64,000 nt of DNA, from contig CANJQH010000001.1 in the NCBI GenBank assembly GCA_947476335.1, forward strand, positions 1 to 64,000. The letters run 5' to 3'. Below the pieces are notes generated by a model. That model searched no databases, had not been told where the DNA came from, and worked only from the letters and a program-made list of their open reading frames with translations. The DNA comes from Anaerolineae bacterium. GTDB taxonomy: Bacteria; Chloroflexota; Anaerolineae; J036; Brachytrichaceae. Below, piece after piece: positions 6,398-18,528 of this stretch (position 1 is its first letter; each line of letters begins with the position of its first letter). A program made the position numbers and the translations under genes.

Positions 6398-6465
6398 TAT
6401 TAGCGCGATTCGTGCGGAAGTGAAGAGTGTATGGCGTGGATAACCGAGTTTTAAGTGATTGTGCC

Positions 6466-6541
6466 GTCATCGCACTGTCATCGCACTGTCATCGCACTGT
6501 CATCGCACTGTCATCGCACTGTCATCGTAATGTCATCGCAC
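6466..6541. repeat. 11-bp tandem repeat (GTCATCGCACT x ~6.9)
   Basis: Five perfect units followed by GTCATCGTAAT and a partial unit. The array runs over the stop codon and last codons of the acetyltransferase gene on the minus strand, so its C-terminus (..AMTLR) is partly repeat-encoded. Confidence 0.95.
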
Positions 6542-11258: not shown

Positions 11259-11777
11259 TCACTTCTCCAGCGCACGCAGCGTTTCCACTACTGCATCGAT
11301 CTGTGGCTTGACGGGTGTATCTGCCAGCTTGACGGCGACGGGAACCTCAAAATCGATCGGCACGCTCAGGCTGATCGGCACCTTGCGCTCGATGCGGATG
11401 GGTACCGAAATGCTGATGGGGACCGAGGTGTCGATCGGCACGTCGAACTTGAGGATGCCGATGATGGGGAATTCCTGCGCCACGGCGACGGTCGTCTTAA
11501 TCGGCACGACCTGGTCGATCGAGATGGTGTCGGCGTATTCGAAGGGCACGCTGGTGTCGATATTGATGGTGTGTTGCACGCGCACGGTGGTGGAGAACGT
11601 GCTGTCGCTGAAGGCTGCGAGCTGGTTTGCGGCAGTGCCGGCGAAAGTGCGGCCGATGCCAATGCCAGTGTAGATACCGTAGGCGATGGCGCCGACGAGT
11701 GCGAGATTCAGGATGAGCGAAGTGACGGCAATCATCCAGAGGAGGGGAGGGGCGCTGCGCTGCGCTGGGGCTTGCAT
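11259..11777 (-). CDS. membrane-anchored protein with repeated VPI motifs
   Basis: A 172-residue protein with one N-terminal transmembrane segment (about 13-37). A mostly beta-type extracytoplasmic part follows, in which short alternating strands end in VPI, VPF or VPV (SVPFEYA, VVPIKTT, DVPIDTS, SVPISIS, SVPIRIE, KVPISLS, SVPIDFE), roughly every 8-12 residues. It ends in a short helix (QIDAVVETLRALEK). I do not recognise a family. The regular spacing suggests a beta-helix or elongated beta-sandwich. Codon use resembles the neighbours. Function unknown. Confidence 0.75.
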   Translation of the reverse strand: MQAPAQRSAPPLLWMIAVTSLILNLALVGAIAYGIYTGIGIGRTFAGTAANQLAAFSDSTFSTTVRVQHTINIDTSVPFEYADTISIDQVVPIKTTVAVAQEFPIIGILKFDVPIDTSVPISISVPIRIERKVPISLSVPIDFEVPVAVKLADTPVKPQIDAVVETLRALEK

Positions 11778-11891
11778 GGTTGGAATTGTACGACGGCGAC
11801 GGTGGGGACATCCGGTGGAGGGTGCATCCGCCGTTGGGGGCAGCTTTCACGAAACGACGTGGGCCGTCACCCAGACCGAGGGTCTGGGCTA

Positions 11892-12221
11892 GTAGTGCGT
11901 CCAGGCAAAACTTGCGGGTCCCTACTAAACATCCTGATATCGGCGCCACGCCGTTGCCAGGGCCGCGCCTTCAGCACAAACCCTGGCTGAATCGAAGTAC
12001 GCCCTTTTCAAGGCTGAAAAAGCGCCAAAGGCGCGACGCAGTCCTAGCCCAGACCATCGGTCTGGGATGCACAACCGCACCCGTGGGAAATTGCTGCGTG
12101 GCAATGTGAGCAAAATATGAGTGAAATATGAGCGAAATATGAGCAAAATGTGAGCGCAATGTGGGTTGTAGGCAAGGTTCGCACAGGGCAGACGCTCACA
12201 AGTTTTGCCTGGACGGACTAC
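11892..12221. mobile_element. 330-bp TA-flanked non-coding element
   Basis: The ends are GTAGTGCGTCCAGGCAAAAC and, at 12199-12221, its near-perfect inverse (22 of 23 bases match). It is flanked by TA at 11890-11891 and TA at 12222-12223, consistent with an IS630/Tc1-type TA target duplication. The inside holds a fragment of R3 (about 12015-12066) and short GTGAGCAAAATAT tandem repeats (12106-12158), but no credible gene. Confidence 0.7.
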
Positions 12222-12223
12222 TA

Positions 12224-12313
12224 AGTGAGTCGCCAAAAGTTCTGGCGGCAGATTCGCCTCCCCCGCTTTGCGGGGGAGGCGAATCTGCCGGACAAAACTT
12301 ATGGACAGGAACT
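12224..12313 (+). mobile_element. MITE-2 copy (90 bp, TA target duplication)
   Basis: Starts AGTGAGTCGCCAAAAGTTCT and ends CTTATGGACAGGAACT, with a long hairpin core around CCCCCGCTTTGCGGGGG. It is flanked by TA on both sides (12222-12223, 12314-12315). It sits exactly at the right-hand TA of the 330-bp element. Confidence 0.9.
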
Positions 12314-12463
12314 TAGGGCTGCGTCGCGCCGTTGGCGCTTTTTCGACGGAACATGAGCGCGCCAACGGCGCGATCCACCGCGGCAGACCAGCGGCCAGCC
12401 CCGGGTGATGGCGGTGCGACGATGCGTTGTCAAATTTCGCCCCAAACGGCGGATGCGCCCCCT

Positions 12464-12639
12464 GTGGATGGGGAAGTGCATCCTGGAGGAGTGAATCGCT
12501 CGTAGCGTGTCGCGCAAAGCTGCGCGCCATCAGCGATTTACCCCTCAATTTTTGTTTTGCCTTGACGCTATATCGGGCCGACTGGAATGTGGTATAGGGA
12601 TATCAGAATGGGATGTTTATTATGTGTTTTCCGTGTGAA
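12464..12639. other. intergenic, no gene recognised
   Basis: Between the R3 copy and the promoter of the YIP1-like gene. The base composition becomes AT-richer towards 12640. No conserved frame or RNA structure was recognised. Confidence 0.5.
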
Positions 12640-12667: not shown

Positions 12668-12747
12668 TTTAGATCTAATACGACGGCTGCAAATGCTTGT
12701 TTGCTTTGCCGTTTCAAAATGTTCGTAATAATTTGGAGGTAGCAGTC

Positions 12748-13296
12748 ATGGTGAATCGATTGATCGGAATTTTGACGCTCAAGGCGCCCGTTTATAAGGA
12801 AGTTGCAGAGGATCAGAGCGCGACGACGCAGGCGCTCATCATCGTGGTTTTGGCTGCACTGCTCACCACGATCGGCACGGTTATTGGTACCGGGGCGGGC
12901 GTCGCGGGCATCGCCTTGCCGTTGGTGACCAGTCTGGTTGGTGGACTGTTGACCTGGGTGATTGGTTCGTTTGTGCTGGCCATTGTGGCGAAAATCCTCA
13001 AAGGTGACACAAATACCGGTGAGATGCTGCGCGTGACCGGCTTTGTCAACGTGTTCGGCTTCGTCGGCGTCCTGAATGCCATTCCGGTGCTGGGTGGAAT
13101 CGTGTCCATCATTGTGATGGTGCTGAACCTGATCGGCTACCTGATCGGTATCCGTGAAGCTGCTGGCTTCGGCACCGGCAAGGCAATTGTCACCGCTATC
13201 GTTGCAGTTGCAGTGCAGGCTGCTGTGACGGCTGCAATTGCTGCTGTGGTCTTGGCGATCGGCATCGGCGCCGCCGTTGTGGCAATGCCGCAGTAA
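12748..13296 (+). CDS. YIP1-family multi-pass membrane protein
   Basis: A 182-residue protein. The start is ATG 12748, chosen because TTTGGAGGT lies 9 bases before it; the frame is open further upstream without similarity. A short cytoplasmic N-terminus with LIGILTLKAPVYKEVAEDQ is followed by about five hydrophobic segments, with the typical YIP1 pattern (GGLLTWVIGSFVLAIVAKIL, then NAIPVLGGIVSIIVMVLNLI). The same 'GVLTL..P.V...IAEDP' N-terminus is found in the next gene, so the two are paralogues. Bacterial YIP1 proteins have no settled function. The gene has its own promoter (12640) and terminator (13317). Confidence 0.8.
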   Translation: MVNRLIGILTLKAPVYKEVAEDQSATTQALIIVVLAALLTTIGTVIGTGAGVAGIALPLVTSLVGGLLTWVIGSFVLAIVAKILKGDTNTGEMLRVTGFVNVFGFVGVLNAIPVLGGIVSIIVMVLNLIGYLIGIREAAGFGTGKAIVTAIVAVAVQAAVTAAIAAVVLAIGIGAAVVAMPQ

Positions 13297-18416: not shown

Positions 18417-18528
18417 GTAACTACTCAGGCCAGCTATTTTTCCAACGCGAAACACACTATTCTCTCCCCCTTCGGGGGAGAGAATAGTGTGTTTCGCGGG
18501 AAATACTGATTTGGGCCTGAGTAGTTAC
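18417..18528. mobile_element. MITE-1 copy (intact) 9 bp upstream of the CarH-like gene
   Basis: A full element with the target duplication AAATTATG on both sides (18409-18416, 18529-18536). It lies between the regulator's start codon and its upstream region, so the native leader is displaced by 120 bp. Confidence 0.92.

Follow-up and report, generated by a model that had tools for sequence, protein, structure and literature searches.

We analyzed a 64,000-nt stretch of DNA (the window) from a draft Anaerolineae genome (3.42 Mb in 125 contigs, 92.7% complete), in which two divergent open reading frames, at 11259-11777 on the minus strand and 12697-13296 on the plus strand, flank a locus that reads directly as R3 left half, TA, E330, TA, MITE-2, TA, and R3 right half. 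The left half of R3 (11820-11889, plus strand) begins with the inverted end GGGTGCATCCGCCGTT and contains a palindrome, CCCAGACC-GAG-GGTCTGGG, that adjoins the insertion site; it is preceded by an 8-bp flanking repeat (CCGGTGGA, 11812-11819) that is the same at 7 of 8 positions as the one to the right of R3 (CCTGTGGA, 12461-12468). The TA at 11890-11891, the left copy of the target duplicated by E330, forms a CTAG with C11889 and G11892, and is followed by E330 itself (11892-12221, plus strand), a 330-bp noncoding element whose 22-bp inverted ends (GTAGTGCGTCCAGGCAAAACTT and AAGTTTTGCCTGGACGGACTAC) are complementary at 21 of 22 positions. Within E330 lie an R3-like module with an internal CTAG (12016-12066, minus strand) and an 11-bp tandem repeat (12103-12172, plus strand) whose unit number ranges from 2 to 11 across the 15 copies compared. 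A single TA (12222-12223) is common to the right junction of E330 and the target of MITE-2 (12224-12313, plus strand), a 90-bp repeat with a long perfect inner hairpin and the ends AGTGAGTCGCCA and TGGACAGGAACT. MITE-2 duplicated its target, and the right-hand TA of the pair (12314-12315) leads into the right half of R3 (12316-12460, plus strand), which terminates in the inverted end GGCGGATGCGCCC. Rfam yielded no matches in the window at gathering scores. Other repeats are found elsewhere in the window: a second 11-bp tandem repeat (GTCATCGCACT) lies outside E330 at 6444-6541, and MITE-1 (GTAACTACTCAGGCC...GGCCTGAGTAGTTAC; e.g., 18417-18528) has exact 8-bp repeats on its flanks in 50 of the 71 copies that are full length, its GTAA ends and 8-bp duplication resembling those of IS66-type elements.

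The nesting of mobile repeats at this locus was confirmed by comparison with R3 copies elsewhere in the genome. Once E330 and MITE-2 are removed, each with one TA, the R3 that remains is 218 bp long and matches an uninterrupted R3 on contig C29 at 209 of 219 positions (95%) across the junction GGGCTAGGGC, the single gap in the alignment falling roughly 50 bases away from it. The initial annotation had proposed both that peeling off the layers rebuilds a continuous R3 and that alignment to other copies would be the way to check this, and the C29 copy runs straight across the junction. Contig C13 provides a further uninterrupted site, and leaving out the inserts of the copies on C2 (37318) and C3 (25417) produces this junction as well. 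R3, a candidate MITE, measures 218 bp and has inverted ends; 23 pairs of such ends were listed, some of them overlapping or nested, and in a search for copies 40 of 222 candidates were scored. Flanking repeats of about 8 to 9 bp were noted by eye at some of the listed pairs, though not at every one.

E330 is abundant in this genome, well beyond chance expectation, with at least 85 BLAST matches when 40 of 189 first-look candidates were scored, and with 85 matches to its end pattern compared to none for a reversed control. It carries an R3-like stretch, as the initial annotation had noted; this is 51 bp long, inverted relative to R3 and 90% identical to it, and each of the 16 E330 copies that were aligned contains it. 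The fragment is thus a built-in part of E330 rather than the mark of an event at this locus, and it gives no local order. The suggested timeline for four mobile families is not supported, and the locus contains three, namely R3, E330, and MITE-2. Among the 85 end matches no inverted pair at an IS-like distance was found that could mark an autonomous element with E330 ends, and a contig scan with the E330 end was negative. Contig breaks in the assembly often fall within E330. At two further loci (L079, C76:7000-8600; L273, C68:18800-19079) R3 and E330 are joined within their shared module, as if the two had recombined and part of E330 had been removed.

The right end of MITE-2, likewise well beyond chance, had 197 matches here, whereas a search of 395 other genomes of the class returned no match. 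Counts of MITE-2 and of its target were made in an 864-kb sample consisting of 40 interior 20-kb stretches together with the window. The target duplication of MITE-2 is a TA within CTAG: the flanks read CTA and TAG in 38 of the 43 copies with both ends, and the other 5 differ at one or more flank bases. The mismatched flanks of several copies suggest recombination after insertion. Two copies (L149:12954-13043 and L149:5656-5745) have their two flanks from different repeats, which suggests recombination between MITE-2 copies. CTAG itself is the rarest of the tetranucleotides counted in the sample, accounting for only 144 of 16,864 TA sites against approximately 600 CTAG expected from trinucleotide counts.

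E330 and MITE-2 differ in what they leave behind at such a site. Because the first base of E330 is G and its last is C, its insertion in CTAG restores C-TA-G at both junctions; the corresponding bases of MITE-2 are A and T, and its insertion in CTAG produces CTAA and TTAG and no CTAG. Each E330 insertion would therefore spend one CTAG, leave one at each junction, and bring another inside, so that landing sites multiply, while MITE-2 would spend one and replace none. We infer from these terminal bases and from the occupancy of sites that E330 acts as a landing pad and MITE-2 as a cap. Across 159 loci we distinguished 79 E330 ends, of which 26 show an intact junction CTAG and 18 are directly adjacent to MITE-2 (21 if three variants judged by eye are counted); 6 have the form CTAAGT, 1 coincides with the end of a contig, and 25 to 28 have other sequences. 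A sizeable minority of the ends are thus at sequences such as TTAG, GTAG, or C-AGTAG, and the CTAG rule is therefore looser for E330 than for MITE-2. MITE-2 occupied 21 of 47 CTAG sites at E330 ends compared to 43 of 187 CTAG sites in the sample (P = 0.005), a rough comparison in that the sets were assembled in different ways and intact CTAG within genes was not filtered out. Additional stacks in the order target, MITE-2, E330 were observed at L098 (C12), L100 (C14), L005 (C33), and L101 (C9), and those on C12 and C14 have in common a relative that is R3-like but differs in its left arm.

The site within R3 could be followed across copies with a pattern on its left half, which matched 128 places, 100 of which were listed and classified. 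The 53 E330-type places among these 100 showed the inner CTAG intact in 46, CTGG in 3, an insertion in 3, and another sequence in 1. The 47 R3-type places comprised 35 with CTGG, 3 with other sequences, 4 with an insertion at CTA, and 5 with an intact CTAG, two of the intact ones (on C8 and C42) resembling R3 over only part of its length. Among the R3 sites listed, those with CTA were occupied in 4 of 9 cases and those with CTGG in 0 of 35 (P = 0.0009), a test in which related copies are not independent and the pattern detects insertions at this exact site only. The four inserts are different in composition: E330 with MITE-2 in the window, MITE-2 alone on C2, an IS630 element with E330 on C3, and a shortened E330 on C76. 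We also considered whether the R3 palindrome itself attracts insertions and rejected this explanation, as the CTGG copies have this palindrome too and yet are unoccupied.

At this locus, then, E330 entered R3 at its CTAG with duplication of the TA, and MITE-2 then went into the CTAG re-formed at the right end of E330, duplicating TA in turn. The window copy of E330 duplicated a TA within CTAG, in agreement with the original description of R3 as split by a TA-flanked 330-bp element with inverted ends, and MITE-2 lies where it had been placed, at the right TA of that element. The earlier interpretation is thus supported in part; the CTAG target rule, which it did not contain, accounts for the stacking of the layers at a single position. 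Very probably, the whole succession is one in which E330 split R3 at CTAG and MITE-2 followed into the regenerated site, both presumably mobilized in trans by IS630/Tc1-mariner-type transposases, with E330 multiplying the available sites.

Other routes to the same arrangement must be weighed against this one. MITE-2 could have entered R3 first, with E330 arriving later at its left TA; both layers duplicate TA, and a minority of E330 ends are found at TTAG or other non-CTAG sequences. However, MITE-2 requires a CTAG, which the right junction of E330 supplies, and had it come first it would have left R3 without a CTAG for E330, with the poor target CTAA on the side in question. Further, MITE-2 is seen repeatedly in the inner CTAG of E330 or at E330 ends, and no E330 was found inside MITE-2 among the annotated loci, so that we regard this order as very unlikely. 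In the window alone one step and two steps look alike, and the abutment of MITE-2 on 18 of 79 E330 ends, an arrangement that recurs at several loci, raises the question of whether E330 and MITE-2 entered R3 together as a preassembled composite, moving between the left end of E330 and the right end of MITE-2. Such a unit would have two unlike ends, and MITE-2 is found next to the left or the right end of E330 and facing either way, which fits separate insertions; joint entry therefore appears improbable. Finally, the R3/E330 junction might have arisen without transposition, if R3 had recombined with the R3-like module inside E330. Recombinants of this kind exist, as the joins inside the shared module on C76 and C68 illustrate, but the E330 in the window has both inverted ends complete and each bounded by TA, and its R3 halves meet without loss or gain, a structure not expected from recombination within the module; the intact C29 copy also contradicts this origin, which we consider scarcely credible.

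Copy divergence is only loosely in line with the order R3, E330, MITE-2 that insertion into successive CTAG sites implies. Mean pairwise identity is 97% for MITE-2 (n = 43), 95% for E330 (n = 15, gaps ignored), 87% for MITE-1 (n = 94), and 79% for R3 (n = 14). The subfamily of R3 that carries the CTAG is approximately 94 to 96% identical, so age differences are small and the order rests more on nesting and the target rule than on divergence.

The genome contains a single match to PF13358 (89 bits), an IS630 transposase on C3 that scored 214.9 bits against the NCBIfam IS630 model NF033545 (cutoff, 100). The element is 1,167 bp long, with a 355-amino-acid open reading frame, ends that are identical at 21 of 28 positions, and TA flanks; its putative catalytic residues D, D, and E were assigned by eye. 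It sits in the same CTAG of another R3, followed directly by E330 and then by the R3 right half. The left end of MITE-2 matches the left end of this IS630 at 19 of 28 positions (shuffle P = 0.002), and its right end matches the IS630 left end at 15 of 28 (P = 0.02) and the IS630 right end at 12 of 28 (P = 0.79). Because the left ends are alike, MITE-2 can reasonably be tied to an IS630-kind transposase, supplied perhaps by the resident IS630 or perhaps by a relative since lost. The ends of E330 showed no significant likeness to those of the genome's single IS630 (P of approximately 0.6); E330 appears to work like an IS630-type MITE, and because its ends are unlike we do not file it in the family of the resident element. 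For E330 it is the target and the TA duplication only that point to an IS630-kind transposase. The transposases that we propose for both elements would act by cut and paste at TA dinucleotides, in this genome nearly always those within CTAG.

Parallels for parts of this behavior can be drawn from several published systems. ISY100 is reported to move by cut and paste into TA (PMC2170065), and a preference of IS630 for CTAG is named in a title cited there (Tenzen and Ohtsubo 1991). MITE-2 and E330 resemble the IS630/Tc1-mariner family and its MITEs in TA duplication and CTAG preference, but unlike IS630 elements they encode no protein, and E330 differs further in that its ends are unlike those of the resident IS630 and that it restores CTAG at both junctions and carries one inside. 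MITEPsy1 of Pseudomonas syringae is a 100-nt MITE that inserts at CTAG or YTAA; it is similar as a small MITE landing at CTAG but reportedly duplicates 4 nt and is linked to ISPsy2 rather than to an IS630 (PMC3189936). In Haloquadratum walsbyi, transposase-free repeats strongly prefer other mobile repeats and the chromosome avoids CTAG, so that mobile repeats within mobile repeats and CTAG avoidance are shared with our locus, whereas the families are different (mostly SMR into PATE and IS605-type elements); we found no site-regeneration rule in the available part of that account of nests (PMC3119063). Insertion sequences that enter REP palindromes show that a palindromic dispersed repeat can be a transposition hot spot (PMC1525189), and R3 is comparable in this respect, although here the shared CTAG and not the palindrome predicts occupancy. 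The present set of repeats was not found in the literature searched, a coverage that leaves out most subscription journals.

The TopA protein encoded in the window shares 64 to 68% identity with proteins of Thermoflexales and Candidatus Roseilinea, which places the organism in the class Anaerolineae of the Chloroflexota. In 60 relatives, which include no genome of the organism's own genus, E330 was found only in its own genome apart from one 31-bp match (G010), and R3 only in its own genome apart from one short match (G059). The IS630 protein had three matches in addition to its own genome, at 32 to 68% identity, the 68% match spanning only 77 residues. Across 396 genomes of the class, the E330 end pattern was found in this genome and in 13 others with 1 to 3 matches each at 1 to 2 mismatches, which is within the range of the reversed-pattern control.

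Three kinds of repeat are stacked at one spot because two of them favor a rare CTAG and one leaves a fresh CTAG behind, and where CTAG is rare this site arithmetic leads to nested clusters, which form in R3 and MITE-1 and at the ends of E330. A tentative and rather doubtful extension is that selection among CTAG-targeting elements favored the G...C ends of E330 and its captured inner CTAG, making it a self-renewing landing pad in which each insertion would add about two net CTAG sites and later insertions would be drawn away from genes into repeat clusters. A descriptive nest becomes a testable rule, namely that an element whose terminal bases restore its own target seeds nested clusters and one whose terminal bases do not closes them, and this genome offers many natural replicates in its 85 E330 end matches, its 197 MITE-2 right ends, and its paralogous empty sites.
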